A DNA stretch of 64,000 bases, taken from Porogramme epimiltina (Eukaryota > Basidiomycota > Agaricomycetes > Polyporales > Polyporaceae). The position numbers were made by a program, and so were the translations under genes. Positions 4,940 through 46,206 of the stretch are shown one piece after another (the first letter of the stretch is position 1; each line of letters starts with the position of its first letter). The notes beneath the pieces were generated by a model. It searched no databases. It saw only the letters and a list, made by a program, of their open reading frames with translations, and was not told the DNA's origin. The DNA lies in the NCBI GenBank assembly GCA_900155495.1, contig FTLJ01000391.1:1-64000 (forward strand), read 5' to 3'.

Positions 4940-5524
4940 GAGTGGCCCCCGATCAGGGGGCGCACGTGATCGTGCGACGAGCGCCATGGTCACCACTGCC
5001 GGGCACGAATCTCAAGCGACAGTTTCGTAGAAAATCACTACGTAAGTGCTACATCGGCTCTCAACGTTTCGACCCTTCTCTCTGCCACCATCCCTCGCCC
5101 TCGTGTGGTCGAGTCCGCCTGTTCGATCATCGGTAGGCCTCATGGAGGCCTGCCGCGGGATGACCAAACCGCAGCTAACTATAGGACTTCTTTCCTTGGC
5201 CTGTGTGCGCGCGGCCGGCTTATCCACATGGGCGCAAGTGCTTTTGTGGATACAAGGGTGTTGAAGTATTGGTAATAGAAACTACAGGACGGGAGTACTG
5301 GTCTTTACTTTTCCTGGGTTACGCCGGATGATTCGATTGGCAGGTAAGTTCTTAACGTCTCGCTCGAGTCCCGCTGGACGGGACACCTGCTACAGAGCGT
5401 TCTGAGGTTCTTTCCAACAGTTCCCACGGCCCACACGCTCATCATCGGTCTCCGCGAAGCCAGTCCCAGGCAGTTGCAGCTCCGCCTCCTCTCAGGATCC
5501 TCCCTGACGGTCCAGCAGCCCCCA
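4940..5524 (+). repeat. Duplicated 5' flank of beta-lactamase-like gene 1
   Basis: This noncoding block matches, in inverted orientation, 39,024-39,650 upstream of the second beta-lactamase-like gene. Shared landmarks include CACTGCCGGGCACGAATCTCA, CACTACGTAAGTGCTAC, GTGTGCGCGCGGCCGGCTTAT-like text, TGTCTCGCTCGAG-type text, and CTCCGCGAAGCC just before the start codon. The match runs up to the ATG, so the promoter was duplicated with the gene. This copy has a short insertion (CACCTGCTAC, near 5387) that the other lacks. Confidence 0.75.
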
Positions 5525-7484
5525 ATGCGGAGCCCTCACCCCGCCGCCGTCGCTCTCCTTTCCGTGCTGGCTGGTGGCCACTACTCTGGATACCTGCGTA
5601 TCCCATTTCTCTCTTCCTCAGACACTGTCAATGAATCCGAGCGCTGGAGCTGCAAGCCATTCCTCCCCAACCTCTTTGCCAACACGCCACCCTCGCTCGA
5701 CCATCCCTCCGTCAAGGCGGCAATAGGTTCTGTCAACTCCTTCTTCACGAACCGTTTCTCACAAGGCGACATCGACAGTCTCTCAGTCGCTGTGGTCACG
5801 GTCAATGGCGCGTTGTATGAGAAGAACTTCGGTGTTATGCGCGGGAATGAGTCCGCCTCATCCCCGCCTACTACCAGTCATTCCATGTACCGTATTGCGT
5901 CAGTATCTAAGCTGTTCACCGCATTAGAGGGACTGATTCTGGAAGAGCGTGGAGTTATATCGTGGTATGTATCCTCGTTCTCCTCGTTCGCTTATGCACT
6001 GAAACCGAAACAGGCACGACCGTGTCGACAAACATATCAAAGATTTCAAGTATCGTCTAGACGGCTTGCACCCCAACCTCCCTACGCAATCACGAGAGAA
6101 GACTCCCATCACACTATGGCAGCTGGCCACACACACTTCGGGCTTGGGCAGGGATTGGCCGCCCGGTATCGTCTCCGACTGGCCAGATAACATGTTTGGA
6201 GGAGGACCGCCCCCTACAAACGGTCACCCATTCCCATCGCACCGCGCTCTTTTCGACGCCATAGCAACATATCCCCTTACCTCACCACCCGCCACCTATC
6301 CCGCGTACTCCAACACCGGTACTGGACTACTTGGGATCGCTCTAGAAGCGGCGAATGCTGCATTATCAGGATCTGCGCCATCTCTCACTTATGCAGAGCT
6401 CCTCCAGCGGGACATCTTTGACCCCATGGGCCTCAACGGGAGCCACTTCCTGACAACGGAGGAGAATAAGAACCTCGTCATCGTTCCCTCGGTTGGGCCT
6501 GAGGTTGCTGTAAGCCTGGTATATATGCACCGTCCTCGCGACATACTCTGATTGCACCAAACAGGACCAGGACTTCCTCGACGCCATGAACCCTGCCGGC
6601 GGACAGTTCTCCTCTCTTTCCGACATGATTGTCGTCACACAGTCTCTCCTCAACGCACGTCATCCGAAGAGTCAAATATCCGAGTATTCGCTCGCTAAGT
6701 GGCTACAAACTGTGCACACCTTCGAGGAGGACGACTGGACAGAGATCGGCTTCACTTGGGAGATCATCAAGGCTCGCGACTCGAACGGCCGCCTGCGCAA
6801 GATCTACTGGAAGCGTAAGCCTCCCACTCCCTGTTCGTCTATCTTCACTGAATGACATACTGTTGCGTTGGTAGTGGGCGCCATGGCCGGATACCACGCC
6901 GCGATCGCGATCCACCCTGGCACCAGCTACGGCGTTGTCGTGCTCATGGGCGGGCGCTACCCAGATGCCGCGAAGCTCGCGTACGACACCTTCGAGCTCG
7001 TCCAGCCTGCGATCGACACCGCACTTGCAGAGGCCGCGACAGAGCTTTACGGGGGCGAGTGGGTTGACGCGGACGCGGAAGTGGCCAAGCCATCCGGCGC
7101 GCGAGTCTTGGTGGAACGGGGCACGCTGTACATCGAGCACTTCATGCTCCCGGGCGTCGACGTGCTCGCACGGTTCGGCTCACCGGGGCGACTTGCACTG
7201 CGTTCGAGCATGCGCAGGGATGAACTGAGGTCAGTGCTTTTGCGGGAGTGTGCTAGTATGTTTGTAGGGCGTTTGGCGCGCTTATACACGATCCCGTCAG
7301 AATCGACACCGGCATCCCAGGATACAACGGGGTTAAGCATATGGGGTGCTACCCGTACTGGAACGGACAAGACTTGTGGGGCGTGCGGAACAACGCAGCG
7401 ATCAACGCAATTTACTTTACGGGCTCTGGAGAGGACAGGAGGCTACGTGTTCCGTCCGTGTCTGTTGTGCTGAAGCGGAAGTGA
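5525..7484 (+). CDS. Serine beta-lactamase-like secreted protein, copy 1
   Basis: Five exons join in frame: 5525-5964, 6014-6509, 6565-6814, 6875-7229 and 7301-7484, giving 574 residues. The N-terminus MRSPHPAAVALLSVLAG looks like a signal peptide. The catalytic SxxK motif is SVSK at residues 126-129, the YxN motif is YSN at 245-247, and HPG at about 409-411 may be the third-motif equivalent. WQLATHTSGLGRDWP is the conserved loop of the beta-lactamase/transpeptidase fold (PF00144). The C-terminal region (IPGYNGVKHMGCYPYWNG) resembles the tail of fungal family members. These proteins are serine hydrolases or transesterases with varied substrates (esters, amides, peptides); the substrate here is unknown. 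Intact, with all key residues. It converges on DUF6534 gene A and is duplicated at 37-39 kb. Confidence 0.9.
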
Positions 7485-12108: not shown

Positions 12109-14309
12109 ATGGCAGACGACTCCGGGTGAGCATCAGCCCATCCCGCTGCCCTGTCCCGCCATCTGACTTCTATCCAGAACAATGACCCCCGCAGAGGACC
12201 AGGAGTTGAAGACCGTCTACACACGAGGTCTAGACTTCTGGATGGTTTACGTGTCCAACCTCATGGTAGACATGCTCTCTGTGCTCGACACGGTATACAC
12301 GTGCTCTTCTATTCATCATTGACATACGGTTGACACGTGCCTAGATGTCAATCTCTACCGCGTTGCCCACGATTGTGGAGCACCTCCACGGAACGGACTT
12401 CATATGGGCAGGTAGCGCATACACCATTGCCTCCACGGCGGTCATTCCCCTCGTGGGCGACCTTGTCTCTGGCTTTGGGCGCAAGCCGACGCTCCTTGCG
12501 TTCATATTGATCTTTGCGGTGGGGTCCGCCGTATGCGGTGGGGCCCAAAGTATGAACATGCTCATCGCAGGCAGAGGTAGGCTACCTCTGACCGGCTTTG
12601 TAGAGCAGTGCGCTGACAACACCCTAGCTATCCAAGGCTTCGGTGGAGGCGGGTGCCTTTCCATTACGGAGATCATCTACGCCGACATGGTCCCTCTCCC
12701 TGAGCGAGGCAAGTTCCAGGCCCTTATAGCTTCGTGCGTACATTCCACCTCTACTTAAGTAAACGCGCTATATGCTGATACATGCATTGTGCAGGGTTTG
12801 GGCAATAGGATGGTATGTGACGTGTCTCCGCTCTTGACAGTTCGCTAACACTCGTCAAGCGCTATGGGTCCACCCGTAGGTGGAGCTTTTGCCAACTCCG
12901 GACAGTGGCGGTGGCTATTCCTGCTTAATCTTCCTCTCTGCGGCATCGCGTTCATCCTCACGACCATCTTCCTTCGTGTCCATACACCGAAGTTTGAGTT
13001 CAAGAAGACGATCGCACGTATGGACTGGATGTGGGTCGTCTCGTTCAGCCTTCGTGGATACTGATACAAACGCAACCGTTTTCAGCGGAATTTCAATCAT
13101 GGTTGGCAGCGCTCTCATAGTCCTCATTGCGATGACTTGGGGAGGGATCCAATTCGCCTGGGACTCTACGCATGTTCTTGCGCCCCTGATCATCGGCAGC
13201 CTTGGTATTTTGGCTTTTTTCATCTATGAGAGAATCTGGACGGGAAACACTGTAAGCGCTCTCATACTCTCTGTGGACATCCATCTGATACTCTGTGCAG
13301 GTCCCACTTCACTTCTTCACGAGCCGCACCACGTTCGGAGGGTGCGTGCACACCATGATCTATGACATGTTTCTCATACTTATATCTTTCTTTAGTTACC
13401 TAGGAACGTTTCTTCACGGCATCACGTCGCTGTGTTCCATCTGTAAGCCAACTTCACCTAATTAGAGGGCTCTCAACACTCACGCATATACAACAGTCTA
13501 TCTTCCTGTGTACTTCCAAGCTGTCCAGGATGCTTCTCCTATCCTTTCGGGCGTTGACATCTTCCCTCTGACGCTCACCATTCCCTTGGCTGCGATCGTC
13601 GCTGGTCGGTCCACGAAGACGTTCAACTGCTACCTGCCCCAGAACTACATCGGCTGGACCCTGAGTGTCGCTGGATTCGTCGCGCTGTCGTACGTCACCG
13701 AGCACAGCTCCCGCGCCATGTACATCGGCACGCAAGTGCTCCCCGCGTTCGGCGTGGGCATGATGTGGGTCGCGACGCAGTTCCCCATCCTAGCGCCCAT
13801 GCCCATCTCCAACAACGCGCACGCGCTCGCGTTCCACGTCTTTCTCCGTCGATTCGCCCAGGTGAGTTCTCACACCGCCCCGACAGGCGTCCATCAGCTG
13901 ACCGCCCGACGCGCCTCGCTAGACGTTCGGCATCGCCATCGGGGGCACGATCATCCAGAACGTGCTCCGCAAGCAGCTGCCTGGCGGTTTCCTCTCCCTC
14001 TTCCCTGAGGGTGTCGAAATCGCGTACGCGGTCATCCCCGTCATCCCTGGGCTGCATAACCCGCTCAAGGACGAGGTGCGACACGCCTTCGCGCTGGCGA
14101 TGCAAACCGTATGGCGGGTGATGATCGGCATCTCTGGCGTAGGACTGCTTTCGTGCCTCCTTCTTCGGGAGGTGCCCATGCGCACGGATATGGACGAGCG
14201 CTGGGGGCTCCAGGAGCGGGACAAGGGCAATGACGCGACGACATCTCTCGAAGAGGCACGGGAGGGCAAGGGCTCGCCGCCTCAGCGGGTGGATGAGGTC
14301 ACCGCGTAA
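12109..14309 (+). CDS. DHA2-type MFS transporter (MFS2)
   Basis: Eleven exons keep frame and give 554 residues: 12109-12125, 12178-12292, 12345-12576, 12628-12733, 12795-12812, 12860-13030, 13086-13251, 13301-13341, 13396-13442, 13497-13861, 13923-14309. The start MADDSG comes from a 17-nt first exon; the paralogue MFS4 has the same design. Key features are STALPTIVEHLHGTDF (TM1), SGFGRKPTLL (loop 2-3, motif A), AIQGFGGGG (TM4), GPPVGGAFANSGQWRW (TM5, motif C region), and the hydrophilic tail after REVPMRTDMDERW. Length and organisation fit 14-TM proton antiporters that export drugs or secondary metabolites across the plasma membrane. It looks fully functional. It is divergent from DUF6534 gene A and closely related to MFS1 and MFS4. 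Confidence 0.92.
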
Positions 14310-27583: not shown

Positions 27584-29614
27584 TCAAACCTTGTTCAGCT
27601 CCACCTGCTCGGCCGGTGCCGGGCCCGAAGATGCCTCCCGCCCGTCCTTCTCGTGCAACCCCCAGTTATCGTCTGTCGCCCTCTGCATCGACACCTCGCG
27701 CATGAGCCAGGACGTCACGAACCCGACGCCCGCAATCGCAATCATCACCTCCCAGAGGACGTCGAGCGAGTCCGCGAACGCGGCGCGCACTTCGCCCTTC
27801 AGCGGCTCTGCAAGCGCCCGGATCTGCGGGATTGTCGCATAGGAGATCTCGACGCCGTCGGGGAGGAGCTGCAGGAACGTGCTTGGGAGACGGGAGCGGA
27901 GCTGGTTCTGTAGGACTGTGGCGCCGACGGTGATGCCCCATGCCTGAGACGCCGATAACGCATCAGCAGTGCTCAAGCCATGTATTACGTGAGCAAGCAT
28001 GCCTGGAAGAACGTGCGCACGAAGATGAAGAACGCTAGCGCGCTTGCATTGATCTCTACTGGGAGGGGCGCGAGGATAGGGAACGTTGTCGCAGTGAACT
28101 GAAGAAAGATGACTATATGTACAGCCGTTTTCAATCGGAGGCACTCACGAGCATGCCGAATCCAATACCAGGGATGATCTGGAAGCCGATCCAGTTTCTT
28201 GTTGCGCTGTCGGCGTGGAGAGTGCTCTGAAGACCCATTCCGAGGAAGATACAGCCCCATGCGATCACGTTCTGCGGCTTGTACTTGTTCATCGCGGTCG
28301 CTGTCCCCCCTGCAACAATCGCGAAAGGCGCAATGGATAGGCTGTAGGGGAGAACGTTGACGCCGCTGCCGACTGGGGAAGAATCCTTGCACGCCTGGAA
28401 ATAAACAGGGAGGTAAACTATGGTGATTATCGCAGGAGTGTTAGTGCATCTGCGATTCACGAATACTAAATATCACTTACACAATGCGGCCGCAATGATG
28501 AAGCCGTGAAGTGCAGTCCCCAGATATCCGCTGACGGTCGTTCGATTGGTGAGGAGACGGAACGGGATTGTGGGCTCGGTCGGGACTTTGATTTCGTACA
28601 CAACCCATGCGAAGATACCCACAAAGCCAACAATGAGCGGTACCAGCACTTGGGCGGATCCCCAAGGGAATTGGATACCGCCCCATGTGAGTCCGAGCAA
28701 GGCCGAAGTGGTACTCCCAATGATGAGAATATTGCCGCTGCACAAACCCCGCTGTTAGTTCGAGAAGAGTGCTGCAGTCAAGCACGCTTACAGCCAGTCG
28801 ATACGTCGGAAACGTTGTGAGAAGGGGTCGTGCGGGGTTTTGAGATTGAGGAAGAGCAGACAAAGAACCATGGATATGCCGGTCAAAGGAAGGTTGAGGT
28901 CTGCAAGCATCTTTAATGACTGAGAAATCAACATTAAGGTGATTCTGACGCACAGAAAAGCCCGCGCCACGTCCAGTCTTGCCGTGAAGCAAAACCTCCA
29001 CCTATAAGCGGACCGGAAATTGAGGCAATGGACCATACAAGACCGATGGCTCCTTGGTAAGCGCCGCGCTCTCGTAGTGGAACGAGGTCTGCAAGGATGA
29101 TCTCTGTCAACGCAAGGATGACACCCGAGCCGAGCCCTTGTATAGCTATAGCCATAACGGTCAGGCAAGTCCTAAGTCCAAACTAGAAGACGACGCACTT
29201 CGTCCGGCGATGAGCATCCCCATGCTTGTCGCTGCCCCGCATACAGCGCTTCCGACTGCAAATAGCGCCAGGCCGCCCAAGAGAATCGGCTTCCGTCCAA
29301 AGAGGTTGGCAAAGTGACCTGAGAGCGGTAGAAACGCGACGCCAGCCAGAGTGTATGCAGAACCTATCCATACGAACTGTTGGCCTTGAAAGTGGTTTAT
29401 TATCGTGGGCAACGCAGTGGAGACGGCACTCTGGTACAAAGTGTAGGTCAGCGGTGTCCGTCGCTTGTATGCACGTGCCGAAGCTCACCGTGTCAAGTGC
29501 AGCGAGGAATGTGGCAATGGTGATTGCGAGCATTGAGAGCCAGAAAGACGCCGTCTTCGGAGGAGACACATCCTCGCGAACGTGTGGCACGACGCTCGTT
29601 TGCACGTCGGCCAT
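27584..29614 (-). CDS. DHA2-type MFS transporter (MFS3)
   Basis: Start MADVQTSVVPHVREDV at 29614 (an in-frame ATG at 29665 is also possible). Exon 1 ends ATFLAALDT and exon 2 begins SAVSTALPTI. Motifs in order: QFVWIGSAYTLAG, ANLFGRKPILL (motif A), TIQGLGSG, GPLIGGGFAS (motif C region), INLPLTGISM-type TM6, LGLTWGGIQFPWGSA, YFQACKDSSPVGSGV, and the C-terminal GITVGATVLQNQLRSRLP with a hydrophilic tail ending EQVELNKV. Fourteen TM segments are expected. The sequence is clearly more distant from MFS1, 2 and 4, with a longer N-terminus and no LHGTDF motif. It lies next to the peptide/UstYa block, so export of that product is a reasonable but unproven role. No frameshift was noticed. Confidence 0.88.
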
Positions 29615-30549: not shown

Positions 30550-30816
30550 TTAGTACTTCTTGTCCTTGCAAGGAATGCCGGGGATGGGCACGTTGATGTT
30601 AAGACCAGGAGCCGGCTTCATGAGCGCCGGGACGGCAACGAACCATCCGACGCCATCGTCCTCATCGCCCTGGCGAGCGACGACATCCTCCCTGACCTTG
30701 TCTACGGAAGTATGTTAACCTCCATCAGGGTGCCCTATCGTACCGTTCGAACACCTACCAACGGGTGCTGCCAGAACCAAGGAGACAAAGAGTAAAAAGA
30801 TGACGGATGCGCGCAT
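30550..30816 (-). CDS. Small secreted peptide (69 aa), possible RiPP precursor
   Basis: Two exons: 30816-30759 and 30701-30550, with a 57-nt GT-AG intron (donor GTAGGT, branch-like GTTAACA, acceptor CCGTAG). The N-terminus MRASVIFLLFVSLVLAAP is a textbook signal peptide, probably cut after LA or AAP. The mature part is about 50 residues: an acidic segment (RQGDEDDG), then GVGWFVAVPALMKPAPG, and a C-terminus NINVPIPGIPCKDKKY. It has one Trp (39), one Cys (64) and a terminal Tyr (69). Basic residues at KVR, AR and KK could be Kex2-like sites, but there is no repeated core. The gene is divergent from UstYa-like gene A and shares its roughly 570-nt promoter region. I do not recognise a homologue. 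The exon model is strong; the precursor role is inferred only from the neighbours. Confidence 0.7.
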
Positions 30817-31387
30817 GTTGTCTGTTGCGAGTACGTTCTGTGGTTGGGTCTGCGCGCAAGCTCTCGACGAGGCAGATGGGAGGTTCTTCGTTGACCCTCT
30901 CCAAACAAGATATATGATCCGGAGAAAGCAGACATCTTGGTAATCGGGCACACCGCCTGCCCGGCAGCATAGCTGTGCCTAGGTCAAGAACTGCATGAGG
31001 ATTCACTTAGTGGGTACGGCAGACGTAATTCTATATCTAACGTTTTGGTGCCACTAGTGAGCTGTCTCCGCTCGGCATCTGACCCGTCGGATCTTCCGGG
31101 TATACCTATCTATCTGATCATTTAGAACCATCGAACCGCCATACGCTGCAACCCACTCTCGGCGCGACGCTCGTATTCAATAAGCATCCCATTTCAGGAG
31201 AGAGAGGTACGACGTAGGGGCCTATTTTCAGTAGCGTAGCTCTGTTGACATATCGGGTAGGTCCCGCTGTCTACATGCACCAATGCTCCACAATGGGTCT
31301 CCGTGCAAATGCCGAACCCGTAAAGATCCCTGGGCACCCTCCACGGCGATAGCGTGAGGGGACGTCTGCCCGTAATCCCTTGTACTG
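30817..31387. promoter_or_regulatory. Shared divergent promoter region of the peptide and UstYa-A genes
   Basis: The 571-nt gap separates two genes transcribed outward. A TATATC-type box on the minus strand lies at about 30,911-30,917, roughly 95 nt upstream of the peptide start. No tandem operator is seen. Co-regulation of the two genes is inferred from the arrangement. Confidence 0.4.
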
Positions 31388-32121
31388 ATGCGCTACTCGT
31401 CGTCCACTCACCCTGTTCTGCGGAGCTCCATCCTCGCTACAGGCCTCACCTTTGCGGCCCTTGTGCTCGTACTCGTGACAGCAATATCTCTCGCGACTCA
31501 AGTATGGCTTTATTGGGCATACCCAGAGCTACCTGTTATACCGCTTGAGAAGACGCTCGCTGAATATTGTGAGCATGCACTCTCCCCGAAGAACTGCTTA
31601 CGAGTTTATATACTAATAGATCGTCTCCACCAGCGTACATTAGTGACGACTACCCTCAGTATTATCCTATCGACCTTGGGGACGTCTCACTCACCCCAGA
31701 GAACACCATCCACTACCAGATCTTTACCGAGGACGCCTCGCGCGAGTGGGAGTCCATCTTCCCACCGGGCGGCGGATTCGTCTACCTGGGACCAGAACAG
31801 CGGCCCTTCGGCCTCGCGCTCTTCCACCAGATGCACTGCCTCGCTCGCATCCGCCGCGCGATGAACTTGCGCCAGTCATCGGAGCACGTTCACCACTGCT
31901 TCAACTACATCCGGCAGGCGATCCTCTGTGAGGCGAACCCAACCATCGAGCCCGTCATCCCCATCCTCGGCCGGCGGAGCGTGAACGCGGAGATCCCGCG
32001 TACGTGCCGCGACTGGACCCAGGTATACGACCTCGCCACGGCACACTTCCGCAATGCGTCTGCGGTAGCCGGAGGAGGAAGAGCGGAGGGAGCGGCGAGG
32101 CCTGAGTTGATGTACGTGTAG
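31388..32121 (+). CDS. UstYa-like (DUF3328) oxidase/cyclase, copy A
   Basis: Two exons (31388-31568, 31634-32121) give 222 residues. A hydrophobic anchor lies at about residues 15-40 (GLTFAALVLVLVTAISLA). The two HxxHC motifs that define the family are intact: HQMHC at 125-129 and HVHHC at 145-149, the latter in the frame HVHHCFNYIRQAILCEAN. Upstream, TIHYQIFTEDASREWESIFPPG matches the usual pre-motif segment, and RTCRDWTQVYD is the conserved C-terminal motif. UstYa/UstYb proteins carry out oxidative cyclisation of ribosomal peptides in ustiloxin-type pathways and act in some NRPS and polyketide pathways. Length is normal. It is divergent from the small peptide gene and convergent with copy B. 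Confidence 0.9.
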
Positions 32122-32313
32122 CTACCGGTGATCGGGCGAAGCACTACTGTGGGCGGCTGGGTGTATTAATGCAGCGGAAAGAGGCTGTAATTTCTAATGG
32201 GGATGCATGAGAAGTCGTGCGGTTCCCCCTCGCACGTCGAGCTTCTACATACTATCCGCGCACTGGGGCCCTGTGCACTGTCAAAATCGGAAGAATGAAT
32301 TCATTAACTCCAG

Positions 32314-33020
32314 TTAAGGGTAGGCATCCGCGGGCCATCTTAGGAAGTTGGCCTCCGCCTCCGTACGAAGAATAGTCCAGTCCCTACAGCGGTGCTCTAA
32401 ACCCAACCCGTCCACTTTTAGGCTCTCTTCCCCTGCTTCCGGTGCCTCCTTGACGGGCTCAACCCGCACGCTCGCGGCGCACAGGAGCATCTGCCGGACA
32501 TAGTTCAGGCAGTGCTGTGTGTGCCAGCTTTCCCACTCGCTGTCGGGCGAGCGCACGACCGCGCGCCGCATCTTGTCGAGACAGTGCAGCTGGTGGAACA
32601 TCGACACGCCGAAGAGCCGATTGTGCGGGCCGAGGCGGACGAACCCGCCCGACCCCGCAGGGAAGAGCGACGCCCACTCGGCAGAGACGTTGGGCTGGTA
32701 GTGCACCGTGTCTTCCACCATTAGGGCTGCGTCGCGCGGGTGCCTCGAGAGCGGTATGAGCGACGGTGGGAAGTCGGTCTCGAGGAAGGCTGCGTTGCGA
32801 GGGGAGTCGTCAGAGCAGTTCATCCCTCCAGGGATGTCACTAAATGAGTAATAATCTTACTGTAGTCCTCGGACTTCCACTCGTCCGACGGGGAGGCAAC
32901 ACGCCAACTATCAACGGCCCTGTGCGCGGACATGTTGGCGAAAATGGCGAACGCTAGAATGAGCGCGGAGGAGAGGTAATAGAGCCATCCCCGGCGCGAG
33001 GAAGGCAGAATCGTGGTCAT
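32314..33020 (-). CDS. UstYa-like (DUF3328) oxidase/cyclase, copy B
   Basis: Start MTTILPSSRRGWLYYLSSAL at 33020, with a TM anchor at residues 12-30. A very short intron (about 35 nt, 32826-32860) is needed to join DEWKSEDY to MNCSDDSPRNAAF; its size is unusual and the boundary should be checked. The protein is 223 residues. HxxHC motif 1 is HQLHC at 131-135 and motif 2 is HTQHC at 155-159 (HTQHCLNYVRQMLLC), both intact. HRCRDWTILR is the C-terminal motif. Outside the motifs it differs clearly from copy A, so the two may catalyse different steps, like the UstYa/UstYb pair. It is tail-to-tail with copy A, about 190 nt apart. Confidence 0.88.
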
Positions 33021-33619: not shown

Positions 33620-34794
33620 ATGGCCTCACTTACCGCCGCGCGCATGAGCTATGCTGCCGCCCTCGTGGCATCAGTTACTTTCGGTCCGTTTTTACTCTTT
33701 GTGCTGCGTCATTTGATGCGATCGTGATACCCAGGCCTGTATGTCGCCATTGCGGCTCAGACAGCATACAAGATTCTCGCCAGTCCGCCCCGCCACCGAG
33801 TGGGAAAGAAGATCCTCCTGGCATGGGTTGTAACGGTCTTTATTCTTCAGACGATCTACTTCGTCGCGGGCTCCAAATGGAGCGAAATCGAGTTCGTCGA
33901 GTCGACCGAAGACCCCGGTGTGTTTGCGGGGCAGCTCTCGTCTAGACTTGCTGTGCTGAAGGATACTACGTATACTGTGACTATATGGATGGCGGATGGA
34001 TTTATCGTAAGTCTTCCTCTACGGATCAGGGTTTTTAATCTTTGCCGACCGTACGTGCCGCAGTTGTATCGTGCGGTTGCAATATACGCGGACAGGCTTT
34101 ACATAGCGGTGGTACCAGCGCTCCTGTATCTGGCTACATTGGGTATGTCCCTTCCGACTTGTTCATTCACGGGCTTATTGAATCTCCATAGCTTCCGGAA
34201 TTGGTCTCCTAGTCGAGACCGCTAAGCCCGGAGCGGCCTTCGGCCAAGTCTCCGTCATCGATTTTGGCACTCCCTTCTGGTCCCTGTCGGTCAGCATGAA
34301 TGTGTTGACCACACTACTCATCGCTGCTCGGCTCTTCTACCGCCGCCGTTCCCTTGTCGACTGCTACAATGAACACAAGACTAGCTCATACTCCCCTGAA
34401 GTTGCCATTTTCCTCGAGAGCGCGGCACTCTACGCGATTTGTTCGATCATCTATATACCCATGTTCTCCAAGAATATCCCGCTTCAATTCCCTTTCTCTG
34501 CCCTTTTGGGATCAGCTGCGGTAAGCGGTTAATGGCGCTTCCATGGGAGTCACGAACGGCGCTGACTGTATGTATTCCAGGCCATCGCGCCACATCTCAT
34601 CATCTTACGGATGGTAGGCGGGCAGTCGTCGAGGCTCGAGATGAGCTTGATACCGCTCCAGAATCGCGGCGGAGATGCGGAATCAAGTGCAGTGCAGGGG
34701 GGACGTAAGGTTAGTCACAAGGCACCCTTCCATTGACGCGTTTACTCATTTAATTTAGTCCGCAGATGGGAGTAGTTCTTTGGGCAAGAACTAG
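33620..34794 (+). CDS. Multi-pass membrane protein of unknown function (copy A)
   Basis: Exons give MASLTAARMSYAAALVAS, GLYVAIAAQTAYKILAS, ILLAWVVTVFILQTIYFVAG, then SKWSEIEFVESTEDPG, KDTTYTVTIWMADGFI, LYRAVAIYADRLYIAVVPAL, SGIGLLVETAKPG, FWSLSVSMNVLTTLLIAARL and VAIFLESAALYAICSIIYIP, and end AIAPHLIILRMVGGQ plus a Ser-rich tail (SADGSSSLGKN). Seven hydrophobic segments and a cytosolic tail are apparent. From memory this belongs to an agaricomycete family with GSxWSEIEFVES and LYRxWxI(W/Y) motifs, lacking a function. The 7-helix layout is receptor-like, but no standard GPCR motif is seen. It is a tandem paralogue of the next gene. TATAAGG at about 33,545 may be the TATA box. Confidence 0.78.
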
Positions 34795-35371
34795 GCTTAT
34801 CCAGACCTTTTGGACATCACCTTGATTACGCTGTGCGTTCTCTGAGTGTCCCAGAGTGTCCGTAAATGTTGCGAAGCCTCCGATGTAATTGTTACCCTGT
34901 GCGGGCTTTGAGATATCCATGATCCCGTCGAACGATTACCACCATCAAATCGTGTACTCAAACAATCTGCTTCTATTCATCCTGTATAGCGCTGCCGCTA
35001 GTGACCATGACGCCAGCGACACAATACTCGGTTTGGTTGAAGCGAACCATCAGTACGCCCTCGGAAACAGCGAATAACAGCGATCTAGGTACGTGCGTAT
35101 GTGCGTTCGTCAACAAGAGAGCACTTCTTCTGAACGCGGAACCGCATCAAATCCAAATTCAGCGGCCAAGAGAAAGTGGGCACGTCAAGAGCATCATGAG
35201 ATCGCGGGGAAAGCGTCAAACCTCCGACAGTTTGACATTTGCCGGAAAGTCCTCACCCAGGCTACGTTTTGCGGAAGGCTATGCACCGCCCATGTGGCTT
35301 GTTTATATACATTAGCCTCATGGACAGCCATGGTTGCAGCCCCAGTCGAACACCACCAAGATTCGTCCTCA

Positions 35372-36683
35372 ATGGCCAATGCAAGCCTTCAAAGCGCTCG
35401 TCTGAGCTATGCCGCCGCCGTGATTGCATGCATTATGTACGGTACGACCCTGTTGATCTTGTAACATCATTCCATCCTGCTAATCACTTTAATACATACA
35501 AAAGGAATGTATATAGTGCTTGCATTAATATGCATTCACTTCCTGTTGTCACGGAAGAAGAATTACCGGTCCAGAAACATTCTCCTGGCATATACGGTCC
35601 TCATGCTTGTCGTGAACACGATATACTTCGTGACTGGCTCAGTTTGGGCTGAAATCGAATTTGTCGAGTCCACTGCTAGCATAGGAGCATATGATACAGC
35701 TCTCAGCTCGGTGACAAGCATTTTGAAGGATACTTTTTATGTTATCGACATATGGCTTGCTGATAGTCTGCTGGTAATGCCCCCTTACATACGATAACGG
35801 AGCATTGAGCTGACTGAGCACTTAGACATATCGTCTGTGGATCTTGTGGGGAGGTAACCTCCTCGTCATTGCAGTTCCATGCATATTGTGGGCGGCCACC
35901 ATAGGTAAAGAAGCCATTCTCCATCTTCGATCATCCATGCTAACTCTGCAATGCAGGAGCCGGAATAGCACTTTTGGTAGCCACTGCAAACCCCAATGCA
36001 CAGTTAACATCTACTTCAGTGATTCACCTCCTCACTACATTCTATTCCCTCACCGTATCCCTCAACGTGATTTGCACCGTCCTTATTGCTGGCTATCTAT
36101 GGCACCAGCACTGCACCATACAGAAGTACAAGGCTGTCCGCTCTTTCAGCTACACCTCAGTGGTCACGGTCCTCGTCGAATCTGCAGCACTCTACTCCAT
36201 TGCAGGCCTCGTATACATCCCGCTCGTAGTCCGCAAGCTCCCGCTCCAGTTTCCCATCACCGCCTTCGTTGGCGGGCTCACGGTGCGCTACCGCCTCCTC
36301 ACCAGGTCTCCTTCCCATTTTGCTGACCATCACCCGCGCGCTCGCAGGGGATATCACCAAACCTCATCGTGCTCCGCATGGCGCTGGGGACGGCTGCGGT
36401 GCCTACGGACGTGCGCGGCACCCACGGCGTGGGGCACTCCGGCTCCGTTGCGCTGCAGCTCTCGCCACTCGCGAGCCCTCCGACGTCCTTCTTGAGCCAA
36501 AGCGCAACTGCGGTGGGGGAAGGTAGCCCACGGCTCGGCATGTCGTTCTCGTCCGAGGTCAAGCCCGGGTGGGGCGCGCAGCCTCTCGGGATTGGGCTCG
36601 GCGCGGGCGTGGGTACGCCGAGGCGTGAGGGGCTCCTGTCCGAGTCGCTGCCGTCTGTGCATGACTGTAGCATCATTGTTTAG
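35372..36683 (+). CDS. Multi-pass membrane protein of unknown function (copy B)
   Basis: Paralogue of the 33.6-kb gene in the same orientation. It starts MANASLQSARLSYAAAVIAC; an in-frame ATG at 35330 adds 14 residues but lacks a counterpart in copy A. Motifs in order: GMYIVLALICIHFLL, NTIYFVTGSVWAEIEFVES, KDTFYVIDIWLADSLL, TYRLWILWGGNLLVIAV, GAGIALLVATANP, FYSLTVSLNVICTVLIAGYL, VTVLVESAALYSIAGLVYIP, then GISPNLIVLRMALGTA. The cytosolic tail is longer than in copy A, rich in Ser/Gly (GVGHSGSVALQL to LPSVHDCSIIV). Introns sit at the same sites as in copy A, so tandem duplication is clear. A TTTATATACA box lies near 35,300. Function unknown. Confidence 0.78.
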
Positions 36684-37066: not shown

Positions 37067-39023
37067 TCATTTCCGCTTCAGCACGACAGACACAGAGGGA
37101 ACATGGAGCCTCCTGTCCTCCCCAGAGCCTGTAAAGTAAATTGCGTTGATCGCTGCGTTGTTCCGCACGCCCCACAGGTCTTGTCCGTTCCAGTACGGGT
37201 AGCATCCCATATGCTTAACCCCGTTGTACCCTGGGATGCCGGTGTCGATCCTGACGTGACCGTGTATCAGCGTCCCAAACGCAACACAAACGCACTGGAA
37301 CGCTCCCGCAGAAACACTCACCTCAGTTCGTCCCGGCGCATGCTCGAGCGCAGTGCGAGTCGCCCCGGTGCCCCGAACCGCGCGAGCACGTCGACACCCT
37401 GGAGCGTGAAGTGCTCGATGTATAGCGTGCCCCGTTCCACCAAGACTCGCGCGCCGGATGGCTTGTCCACTTCCGCGTCCGCGTCAACCCACTCGCCCCC
37501 GTAAAGCTCTGTCGCGGCCTCCGCGATAGCGGTGTCTATCGCGGGCTGGACGAGCTCGAAGGTGTCGTACGCGAGCTTCGCGGCATCTGGGTAGCGCCCG
37601 CCCATGAGCACGACGACGCCGTAGCCGGTGCCAGGGTGGATCGCGATCGCGGCGTGGTATCCGGCCATGGCGCCCACTGCCAACGCAACAGCATGTCACT
37701 CAGTAAAGATAGACGAACAGAGAGCTGGAGGCTTACGCTTCCAGTAGATCTTGCGCAGGCGGCCGTTCGAGTCGCGAGCCTTGATGATCTCCCAGGTGAA
37801 TCCAATCTCTGTCCAGTCGTCCTCCTCGAATGTGTGCACAGTTTGTAGCCACTTAGCGAGCGAGTACTCGGATATTTGACTCTTCGGATGACGTGCGTTG
37901 AGGAGAGACTGTGTGACGACAATCATGTCGGAAAGAGAGGAGAACTGTCCGCCGGCAGGGTTCATGGCGTCGAGGAAGTCCTGGTCCTGGTGGGTGCGGA
38001 ATCAGAGCGTGTCTCGAGAAGTGCATATATGCACTTACAGCGACCTCAGGCCCAACTGAAGGAACGACGACGAGGTTCTTGTTGTCCTCCGTTGTCAGAA
38101 AATGGCTTCCGTTGAGGCCCATGGGGTCGAAGATGTCGCGCCGGAGGAGTTCTGCATAAGTGAGAGACAGTGCAGACCCTGATGAGGCAGCATTTGCCGC
38201 TTCTAGGGCGACCCCAAGAAGTCCAGTACCAGTGTTGGAGTACGCGGGATAGGTGGCGGGTGGTGAGGTAAGGGGATATGTTGCTATGGCGTCGAAAAGA
38301 GCGCGGTGCGATGGGAATGGGTGACCGTTTGTTGGGGGCGGTCCTCCTCCAAACATGCTGTCTGGCCAGCCGGAGACGATACCGGGGGGCCAATCCCTGC
38401 CCAAGCCCGAGGTGTGTGTGGCCAGCTGCCATAGTGTGATTGGAGTCTTCTCTCGTGACTGCGTAGGGAGGTTGGGGTCCAAGCCGTCTAGACGATACTT
38501 GAAGTCTTTGATATGTTTGTCGACGCGGTCGTGCCTGTTTCGGTTTCAGTGTGTGAGCGAACGAGGATAACGAGGATACATACCACGATATAACTCCACG
38601 CTCTTCCAGAATCAGTCCCTCTAATGCGGTGAACAGCTTAGATACTGACGCAATACGGTACATGGAATGACTGGTAGTAGGCGGGGATGAGGCGGACTCG
38701 TTCCCGCGCACAACACCGAAGTTCCTCTCATACAATGCGCCATCGACCGTGACCACAGCGACTGAGAGACTGTCGATGTCGCCTTGTGAGAAACGGTTCG
38801 TGAAGAAGGAGTTGACAGAACCTATTGCGGCATTGACGGAGGGATGGTCGAGCGAGGGTGGCGTGTTGGAAAAGAGGTTGGGGAGGAAAGGTCTGCAGCT
38901 CCAGCGCTCGGACTCGTCGACAGTATCCGACGAAGAGAGAAATGGGATACGCAGGTATCCAGAGTAGTGACTTCCAGCCAGCACGGAAAGGAGAGCGACG
39001 GCTACGGGGTGAGGGGTCCACAT
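37067..39023 (-). CDS. Serine beta-lactamase-like secreted protein, copy 2
   Basis: Inverted paralogue of the 5.5-kb gene with the same five-exon structure. The start is MWTPHPVAVALLSVLAG at 39023 and the end SVSVVLKRK at 37067. SVSK, YSN and the HPG motif are all present. The exon encoding MNPAGGQFSSLSDM to RLRKIYWK is identical to copy 1 over 76 residues, and the following intron is also very similar. Substitutions elsewhere are few (for example MWTPHP for MRSPHP, HFTLQG for HFMLPG). No frameshift is seen, so both genes should be active. Upstream, 39,024-39,650 is a duplicate of the copy-1 5' flank. The gene converges on the multi-pass pair. Substrate unknown. Confidence 0.9.
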
Positions 39024-39650
39024 TGGGTGCTGCTCAACCGTCGAGGGGGGGGCGTCCTGAGAGGAAGTCTGAGCGGAGGGGTGAGCTACAGGTGCCTAGG
39101 TGCGGCTTCGCGGAGATCGAGGATGAGTGCTGAGCGCATGGATCGTGGGAACCGCCGGACAGAAGCTCAGAACGCTCTGTCCCGTCCAGCGGGTCTCGAG
39201 CGAGACATTAAGATCTTACCCGCCAATTGAATCGCCTTCACCAAATCCGGTACAACCCTGGAACAGTGAAGACCAGTCCCGACCGGGTGGTGGGGTCTGG
39301 TCCTGTAGTTTCTATTATTAATACTACAATGCCCCTGTATCCACAAAAGCGCTTGCATCCCTGTAGATAAGCCGGCCGCGCGTACACAGGCAAGCGGAAG
39401 AAGCCCTGCAGTCAACTGCGATTTGGTCATCCCACGGCAGGCCACCATGAGGACTTGCCAATGATCGAACAGCCGGACTCGACCACAGAAGGGAGAGGGT
39501 GGCTTCGTTAGAATCAGTGAGAAGGGTGCAGACGCTGAGAGCCGAGGTAGCACTTACGTAGTGCTAGTGAGCGCTGAGCTTCCACAAAACGATCGGTTGA
39601 GATTCGTGCCCGGCAGTGTTGACGGTGGCGCCTGTCGCATGATCACCCCC
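39024..39650 (-). repeat. Duplicated 5' flank of beta-lactamase-like gene 2
   Basis: Inverted counterpart of 4,940-5,524. Shared blocks end at the start codon on one side and at about CGCCACCGTCAACACTGCCGG on the other, beyond which similarity stops. Together with the gene this makes an inverted duplication of roughly 2.5 kb. Confidence 0.75.
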
Positions 39651-43948: not shown

Positions 43949-46206
43949 TCACTCCGCCTCTTCGATCGCGCACACTGTTCCGGGGCGCGAGATGTCGGCC
44001 CTCTTCCCCTCCTCCAGCACTATACCCTGATCCTTCTCTCTCTCCTCGTTCTGTTGCAGGGCCCAGCGCTCGTCCATATCCTTTCGCATTGGCACCTCGC
44101 GTAGGAGAAGGCACGAAAGCAGACCCGCGCCGCACACCCCGATCATCACACGCCACACCATCTTCATGGCGAGTGCGAACGCGTGGCGTACCTCCTGTTT
44201 GAGCGGGTCATGAAGGCTGCTAATCGTCGGGATGACCGCGTATGCAATCTCGACGCCCTCCGGGAAGAGCGCGAGGAAATTTTCAGGGAGGTGTTTCTGG
44301 AGGACGTTCTGTATAATCGTGCCCCCGACTGCGATACCGAACGTCTGGGGTAGCGGGACCTGCGATCAGCAAACTTTCCCACAAAATATGAGGGCCGAGC
44401 CCGGAGGCCGTTGAGAATACGGAGCCTTGATGCGGTGGGGACCCACCTGTGCGAAGCGACGTAGGAAGATGTGAAAAGCGAGCGCGTGCGCGTTGTTTGA
44501 GATGGGCATTGGTGCCAAAATTGGAAATTGGGTGGCGACCCAGATAATTCCAACACCAAACGCAGGGAGAACCTGGATGGCGAGGAACTTTGCGCGAGTG
44601 CTGTGCTCGTCGACAGTTGATAGAGCCGCAAAGCCCGCCACGCTCAGGATCCAGCCGATATAATTTTGTGGCAGGTAGCGGTTGAATGCCTTCGTGGACT
44701 GCCCCATGATTATTGCTGCGACGGGGAGGGTGAGAGTTAACGGAAATATGTCAACTCCTGAGAGTATCGGAGATGCTTCTTGAACGGCCTGAAAGTACAC
44801 AGGAAGATAGACTAGAACATGTCAAAGTGTCGCCCAGCATCTTTATATCCAGTTGACTCACATATTGAACACAGTGAAACTATTCCATGGAAGAAAGTTC
44901 CCAAATATCTTCCCGAAAAAATAAGTATTAACACGTTATATGTACATATACCGCAAACGTACCCGCCAAATGTCGTTCGACTCGTGAAGAAGTGCTCTGG
45001 AACCTGTTGGAATCAAATACTGTAATGATATATTGATATTAGATCGCCAACGTACAGTATTTCCTGCCCACATCCTTTCGTAAACGAAGAAAGCCAAGAT
45101 CCCCCCACTTCCAACAATCAAAGGGGGGATTACGTGTGTGGAGTCCCAGGAGAACTGGATTCCCCCCCAAGTCATGCCGATGAGGACTGAAAGGGCGCTA
45201 GTGACCATAATCAGGATCCCTCTGAGATCTATCCCGTCAGCACACTATCCGAAGGCGATGACAGATACATCTCACATCCAGTCCATGCGTGCCATTGTCT
45301 TCTTAAACTGGAATTCTGGCGTGTGGACTCGCAGGAATATTGATGCCAAGATAAATGCTATGGCACAAAGCGGAAGGTTGAGAAAGAAGAGCCACCTCCA
45401 TTGCCCGGAGTTGGCAAAGGCACCGCCGACGGGTGGCCCTATTGCGCTACAGAGCAAATATTAACCCCATAATTGTACTCTGATAACCCACAACTTACCA
45501 CCCAATCGCCCACACACTGTGAAAGAGACAAGATTGAGTCTAGGGACGCTAAGAAACCACAACAGGAAACGCTTACGAGGCTATTAGCGCTTGAAACTTT
45601 CCACGCTCCGGGAGAGGTACCATGTCTGCATAAATGATTTCAGTAATCGCGAGACAGCCACCGCCTCCGAACCCTTGGACAGCTAATACATCGTCAGTAA
45701 AATTGGGATTGTACACTTGTGCACGGAATAATACACTTGCCTCGCCCAGCGATGAGCATGTTCATGCTCTGAGCTCCCCCGCAAATCGCAGATCCCATAC
45801 CGAACACTGATATGAATCCCAAGAGCGTCGGCTTTCGTCCAAAACCCGAGGCCAGGTCGCCAACCAGGGGGATAATGGCTGTAGAGGCGATGGTGTAAGC
45901 GCTACCTGCCCATATGAAATCTGTGCCGTGAAGGTGCCCTGCAATTGTCGGTAATGCGGTGGATATTGCTAGCTATAATCACGCGTGAGACACACTCGAA
46001 TGTAGAGGACAGTGTACGACTTACGACATCCAGCACAGAAAGCAAGTCTACAGTGATGTTGGATACATAGACCATCCAAAAGTTGAGCCCCCGCTTATAA
46101 ACCGACTTCAACCTGTCGTCTTCTGGAGTGGGCGTCGTGCTAAGCAAATCGTTGGTGGTCGGGAATATGTGAATGAGGTTGGAACGCACTCGTAGTCGCC
46201 TGTCAT
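43949..46206 (-). CDS. DHA2-type MFS transporter (MFS4)
   Basis: The start MTGDYD is from a 17-nt first exon at 46206, as in MFS2. It continues TTPTPEDDRLKSVYKRGLNF and WMVYVSNITVDLLSVLDV. Further exons give ISTALPTIAGHLHGTDF-type TM1, ASGFGRKPTLLG (motif A), IGPPVGGAFANSGQWRW (motif C region), LPLCAIAFILASIF, MTWGGIQFSWDSTHV, VPEHFFTSRTTFGG, YLGTFFHGIVSLCSI, YLPVYFQAVQEASPI and QNVLQKHLPENFLALFPEGV, and end REVPMRKDMDERW with a charged tail. All splice sites used have GT-AG ends. It is closest to MFS2, about 550 residues, 14 TM expected. It is divergent from DUF6534 gene E. Likely a plasma-membrane proton antiporter; substrate unknown. Confidence 0.88.

Follow-up and report, generated by a model that had tools for sequence, protein, structure and literature searches.

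Proteins of the UstYa (DUF3328) family modify peptides that are cut from secreted precursors in the ustiloxin, asperipin and phomopsin pathways, and the asperipin cluster is described as comprising just the precursor, one UstY, a transporter and a reductase. Repeated cores are typical of such dikaritin precursors, and KK, KR and RR are the cleavage sites named for them in the KEP, UstYa and dikaritin literature consulted (PMC7329392, PMC8893723, PMC12186524, PMC12048977, PMC9233826, PMC6514808, PMC9769878, PMC12409109, PMC10512285). UstYa proteins also work in pathways that do not yield RiPPs, and for UstYa clusters that lack repeats a lichen study has named a single core as one possible explanation. 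In a survey of 1461 strains, only 103 of 1680 basidiomycete KEPs (6.1%) had UstYa genes nearby, and scarce cyclisation in Basidiomycota was offered there as one of two possibilities. For Pleurotus ostreatus (eLife 2022), 16 UstYa genes are reported, six of them developmentally expressed, and are called probably dikaritin-related; the sections of that account consulted name no precursor.

Several UstYa genes per genome were likewise observed in the agaricomycete Porogramme epimiltina (19 matches on 10 contigs), showing that mushroom genomes can carry many of them. In contrast to the P. ostreatus account, a precursor candidate lies beside a UstYa pair in the window, by which we mean the whole stretch of 64,000 nucleotides that was analysed. 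The features of the locus are as follows.

27590..29614, minus strand: MFS transporter gene with several exons, assigned by Pfam, ends approximate; connected with the pathway by position only
30550..30701, minus strand: exon 2 of the peptide gene (short pro-region, conserved core, KK, Tyr and stop), from the sequence and the alignment
30556..30561, minus strand: Lys-Lys, a KEX2-type dibasic site, 1–2 residues after the Cys in 12 of 12 family members by a count of flanking residues
30562..30672, minus strand: predicted core of 37 residues, QGDEDDGVGWFVAVPALMKPAPGLNINVPIPGIPCKD, between Arg29 and Lys67-Lys68, placed by the alignment and the basic flanks, with inferred ends
30702..30758, minus strand: intron of the peptide gene, 57 nt, phase 1, GTAGGT...CCGTAG, at a position conserved among homologues
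30759..30816, minus strand: exon 1 of the peptide gene, signal peptide MRASVIFLLFVSLVLAAPV, from the sequence
30817..31387, no strand: divergent intergenic region between the peptide gene and UstYa1, 571 bp, from the gene models
31388..32121, plus strand: UstYa1, 222 residues, intron 31569-31633, hydrophobic TM-like N-terminus, HQMHC and HVHHC (PF11807 and motifs)
32314..33020, minus strand: UstYa2, 211 residues, intron 32790-32860, HQLHC and HTQHC (PF11807 and motifs)

The models bear out most of what the first-pass annotation had read at this locus. The two-exon minus-strand gene at 30816-30550 encodes a predicted 69-residue peptide, MRASVIFLLFVSLVLAAPVDKVREDVVARQGDEDDGVGWFVAVPALMKPAPGLNINVPIPGIPCKDKKY, with one Trp, one Cys and a terminal Tyr, which would be secreted, judging from its sequence. 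The divergent region that it was said to share with UstYa1 is the 571-bp gap, and the MFS gene expected beside it runs from about 29614 to 27590, where one exon matches MFS_1 (E 1.6e-11). UstYa2 is present as well, convergent with UstYa1 and 192 bp further on; its description as diverged holds for the overall sequence but not for the motifs, since two intact HxxHC motifs are found in each protein. The PF11807 scores of UstYa1 and UstYa2 were 59.3 and 63.5 bits (cut-off 25). For UstYa2, the 71-nt intron was chosen for its phase-1 junction and for a downstream motif like that of UstYa1 (Y-[TS]-[YF]-[LI]-x-x-D-[FY]-P). An alignment of 58 sequences (exon 2 of the window's UstYa1 with 57 of the 132 UstYa proteins found) gave the invariant columns G47, H64, C68, C88, C98, E105 and C124. 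The 161-residue exon-2 part of UstYa1 was modelled with AlphaFold2 at a mean pLDDT of 84. No significant match of this part to the PDB was obtained by fold (best E 1.0) or by sequence (two matches, best 0.24), and the structure therefore offered no mechanism. UstYa enzymes may use copper, a lead given by the title of a 2025 paper by Chiang, Ohashi and Tang.

In principle, the UstYa pair and the MFS protein could serve a small-molecule pathway with the peptide as an accessory for self-protection, as a chaperone or as a regulator, and UstYa proteins have indeed been found in polyketide and nonribosomal-peptide clusters. However, the 20 ORFs scanned with Pfam, out of 482 stop-to-stop ORFs of at least 60 residues in the window, gave no match to a PKS, an NRPS or a terpene cyclase, and we consider this explanation quite improbable.

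A search of 5.8 billion proteins, of the kind that the first-pass annotation had proposed, returned 13 candidates, of which 11 were homologues of the peptide (E 2.8e-21 to 2.6e-13). At these values the peptide gene is more than a chance reading frame, and the peptide is a member of a conserved gene family. Four of the 11 carry species names: Trametes coccinea, Trametes sanguinea, Polyporus arcularius and Ganoderma adspersum. Homologues were absent from the bacterial and archaeal genome, viral and plasmid collections searched, and the peptide was found once in its own 41.9-Mb assembly, with no paralogue detected elsewhere in it. Some of the 12 aligned sequences are partial or intron-containing models, which affects the termini and leaves the core intact. 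Three pairs of homologues (P0004/P0010, P0002/P0003 and P0005/P0009) each combine a model spliced after the signal peptide with one that reads through there, from which the conserved intron position was deduced; P0010 corresponds to P0004 (P. arcularius) with the intron read through. Searches of Pfam and NCBIfam with the 12 family members gave no significant match (best E 0.029, for one member, and 0.19).

In the 12-sequence alignment, about 33 residues (DEDDGVGWFVAVPALMKPxP..INVPIPGIPC) form a nearly invariant block. Met1 included, 27 columns are invariant: DEDDGVGWFVAVP, LMKP, then P, N, PIPG, PC and one Lys. These comprise Trp39, Phe40 and Cys64. Tyr behaves differently from these three residues: no Tyr is invariant inside the core, several homologues lack Tyr, and a C-terminal Tyr, taken earlier as a feature of the peptide, ends only 5 of the 12 sequences. 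The earlier proposal of a single-core precursor with a modified Trp/Tyr region thus stands for the single core and for the Trp, to which Phe and Cys can be added, but not for the Tyr. A basic residue shortly precedes the core in all 12 sequences (Lys in P0004 and P0010, Arg in the other 10), and in 8 of them the core is led by RQG. The stretch between signal peptide and core is variable across the family.

The layout resembles that of the dikaritins (ustiloxin, asperipin-2a, phomopsin and victorin, with epichloecyclins similar) in that a signal-peptide precursor lies beside UstYa/DUF3328 genes with double HxxHC motifs. The differences concern the precursor. Dikaritins have repeated short cores and many dibasic sites, whereas the window peptide, read from its sequence, is free of repeats and holds one long core of about 37 residues, bounded by one basic residue and one KK stretch; the absence of the repeated cores of known precursors, pointed out in the first-pass annotation, is real and conserved in the 12 sequences. 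In dikaritins a Tyr (Phe in victorin) is cross-linked in the core, Tyr being the usual target, while Trp and Phe are invariant in the core of the present family. The near-invariance of the core between genera and the basidiomycete host also set the peptide apart. Ustiloxin and phomopsin clusters contain a tyrosinase or an S41 peptidase. No S41 match was obtained in the window, the only one being on contig C508; the tyrosinase profile PF00264 gave no match anywhere, its controls likewise giving none. A secreted precursor next to UstYa genes is thus found (secretion by sequence only) and repeated cores separated by dibasic sites are not, and because of the latter we did not file the locus as a dikaritin. 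With the KEPs of Agaricomycetes the peptide has in common a secreted precursor, a KEX2-type dibasic site and, in 8 of the 12 sequences, a likely N-terminal Gln. KEPs have repeats flanked by KEX2 sites, however, and the window peptide, which has adjacent UstYa genes, lies outside their definition for want of repeats.

We regard it as reasonably probable that the 69-residue protein is a single-core KEX2-type precursor whose core is modified by the UstYa pair. The signal peptide would direct the precursor into the secretory pathway. Cleavage at the basic residue that precedes the block and at the KK that follows, together with KEX1-like trimming, would then release a peptide of about 37 residues that begins with Gln in 8 of the 12 sequences. 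By analogy with known UstYa chemistry, both membrane-anchored enzymes would act as oxidases on this peptide in the same compartment. Trp39, Phe40 and Cys64, being both invariant and oxidisable, would be the most likely targets, and cross-linking, hydroxylation or desaturation the likely reactions. The neighbouring MFS protein, to judge by its position, may export the product. The near-invariant core, the conserved basic boundaries, the apparent linkage described below and the intact HxxHC motifs speak for the precursor reading, which is strengthened by the conserved KK behind the core, a feature absent from the first-pass annotation; the lack of an invariant core Tyr and the occurrence of enzyme orthologues in fungi with no detected peptide count against it. 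We infer a modified-peptide (RiPP) identity, and the conserved peptide beside two likely oxidases is probably the source of a new kind of modified peptide.

The main rival to the UstYa-modified precursor is a secreted signal or defence peptide that is released by KEX2 and stays unmodified or is capped with pyroglutamate, the UstYa pair having another substrate and the linkage being accidental. Near-invariance of the whole core would be expected for a signalling peptide. The KEPs of Agaricomycetes, in the accounts consulted, are called minimally modified, with an N-terminal pyroglutamate upon expression in Pichia, and the RQG before the core in 8 of the 12 sequences fits such a cap. The divergent arrangement of the peptide and UstYa1 genes in the window and the apparent linkage to UstYa1 on three contigs of other fungi argue in the opposite direction, and we judge this explanation unlikely.

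Whether peptide homologues adjoin UstYa genes, the question put in the first-pass annotation, was read from locus tags and equal contig sizes rather than from the DNA of the relatives, and the outcome is favourable as far as the analysis was run. An orthologue of UstYa1 is apparently linked to the peptide in 3 of the 11 homologues, and one of UstYa2 as well in 2 of the 11. In Ganoderma adspersum, the peptide (V8D89_001587) and UstYa1 (V8D89_001591) share a contig size of 1,336,178. The peptide P0010, UstYa1 P0018 and UstYa2 P0065 share a contig size of 19,899, and P0006, P0026 and P0066, in the same order, one of 22,731; two contigs and the same sources are recorded for each protein of these two sets. 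The contig of 19,899 is probably from P. arcularius or a close species, given the correspondence of P0010 to P0004. The chance of a UstYa1 gene on a random 20-kb contig of a genome of about 40 Mb would be about 1/2,000. The three linked UstYa1 proteins group with that of the window in a set of eight rows within a UstYa tree (support 90/77, below the star level of the tree tool). The only UstYa2-like match listed for G. adspersum, V8D89_008728, has 47% identity and lies on a different contig, so the peptide cluster of this species may lack UstYa2, or the gene may have escaped annotation there. For three further homologues the contigs (588, 828 and 1,408 bases) are too short to show linkage, and five (contigs of 277,095, 1,851,424, 109,518, 15,713 and 13,819) gave no UstYa match of equal contig size. 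The proteins were clustered at 90% with one contig listed for each, and these five may still be linked.

The apparent linkage also argues against a conserved small structural or surface protein with no relation to UstYa, as do the basic boundaries in 12 of 12 sequences; such a protein would agree with the lack of significant Pfam or NCBIfam matches, and we regard it as very improbable. Proteins like UstYa1 and UstYa2 were also matched in Mycena, Hysterangium, Obba and Lentinula, among others, and the four peptide homologues with species names all come from fungi of a different kind. Pairs of UstYa1 and UstYa2 with equal contig size and no detected peptide were found in Cubamyces (30,613), Trametes meyenii (2,720,596), Hysterangium (391,809), Mycena galericulata (1,272,249), Mycena maculata (1,262,182), Ganoderma leucocontextum (660,438) and G. 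sinense (2,256,307). The pair is therefore more widespread than the peptide as detected. Small genes frequently go unannotated.

Other UstYa loci of the same genome were covered by 13 stretches of 10 kb and a crude scan for a signal peptide, a phase-1 intron and a short second exon. The profile of the window peptide gave weak matches only in these stretches, the best of which (E 0.23) overlaps by its coordinates a UstYa gene on the opposite strand. We counted 12 other loci, treating C403a and C403b, which lie 8 kb from each other, as one. At seven of the 12 (C403a/b, C113, C26, C223a/b, C223c, C326b and C293), a plausible candidate for a tiny secreted peptide lies no more than about 5 kb away. 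No plausible peptide was seen by the crude scan at the remaining five (C326a, C99, C226, C782 and C403c); hits at C99, C226 and C403c were judged spurious or unclear. The peptides were grouped as follows.

Family A: the window peptide, WFVAVPALMKP
Family B, ..WLE..: C403 at 23338, 24899 and 26626, and C113 at 51899; 0.6–0.8 kb from a UstYa match
Possible further members of family B: C403 at 22368 and C26 at 58855 (..EYLE)
Family C, W..N..HVxV, tentative: C223:25978 (minus strand) and C326:47339; similar signal peptides, near UstYa genes
Family D, [WY][LV]GAA[VI]E: C223:20292 (unusual GTCCGT donor) and C293:10298; apparently related, near UstYa genes

On C403, three, perhaps four, tiny secreted two-exon peptides stand in a row by UstYa genes.

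The crude scan gave 16 candidates in 130 kb, whereas 150 dinucleotide shuffles averaged 2.6 (sd 1.8, maximum 9); for candidates with W-[LIVFM]-[ED], the count was 4 and the shuffle mean 0.027 (maximum 3). Shuffling destroys real genes, so these controls flatter the result; the same scan of the real 64-kb window returned the peptide and 3 other candidates. Under a stricter filter, which was set once the data had been seen, the UstYa stretches (141 kb) gave 10 hits and the control (104 kb) gave 1 (p 0.02), the control being the window, with its own peptide excluded, and four other stretches. Two of the 10, at C99 and C403c, are probably spurious, and C223:20292 passed via an acceptor other than the preferred one; the C293, C326 and C403:22368 peptides are outside the 10. 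In a core-only shuffle test of 55 pairs, two family B pairs scored higher than all 2000 shuffles. The p value was 0.0005 for family D and 0.08 (not significant) for family C, and pairs regarded as unrelated reached 0.012. The WLE pattern had 5 matches genome-wide versus 2 for the reversed control pattern, and 3 of the 5 are the peptides that define the pattern. The match at C704, when translated, appears to belong to a longer frame with no relation to these peptides, and the one at C67 was judged unrelated by eye from the raw sequence.

Enzyme lineage and peptide family may go together, to which two trees lend weak evidence. C223b and C293b group with support 99/69 in the first and 80/55 in the second, and C326b and C223c with 99/94 in the first, being unresolved in the second. 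The first tree, which also holds the eight-row UstYa1 set, is missing 6 of the 19 UstYa rows of this genome, which the pattern had missed; the second is without C403c and has a C223a row that is probably in the wrong frame, as it lies on the opposite strand, shows no motif and has a very long branch.

Overall, these crude gene models suggest that mushroom UstYa enzymes often use non-repeat precursors. A broader proposition, that Agaricomycete UstYa proteins generally act on tiny single-core two-exon secreted peptides, each lineage with its own family and at least four families here, is put forward tentatively, at somewhat below an even chance. If true, it would explain why few UstYa-linked precursors appeared in the basidiomycete survey of repeated cores, and non-repeat precursors, if common, would be missed by searches for such cores. 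Topic and core-string searches of open-licence PMC papers found no description of a conserved family of single-core UstYa-linked precursors; the single-core idea is already known, and such a family appears to be undescribed in those papers. The conserved non-repeat precursor and the conserved UstYa pair provide a concrete candidate substrate, and the question can be tested with three genes.

In the window, stretches resembling MFS transporters were noted by eye at 914-2418, 13466-14005, 27590-29614 and 44167-45208. Pfam confirms 27590-29614; the ORFs tested at 13466-14005 and 44167-45208 gave no Pfam match. Two similar multi-exon genes for hydrophobic, multi-TM-looking proteins lie in tandem at 33620-36490 on the plus strand, with no Pfam match in the three ORFs tested. 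Genes for beta-lactamase-like serine hydrolases at 5348-7470 (plus strand) and 37856-39095 (minus strand) are nearly identical over about 60 residues and apparently represent a duplication inside the window.
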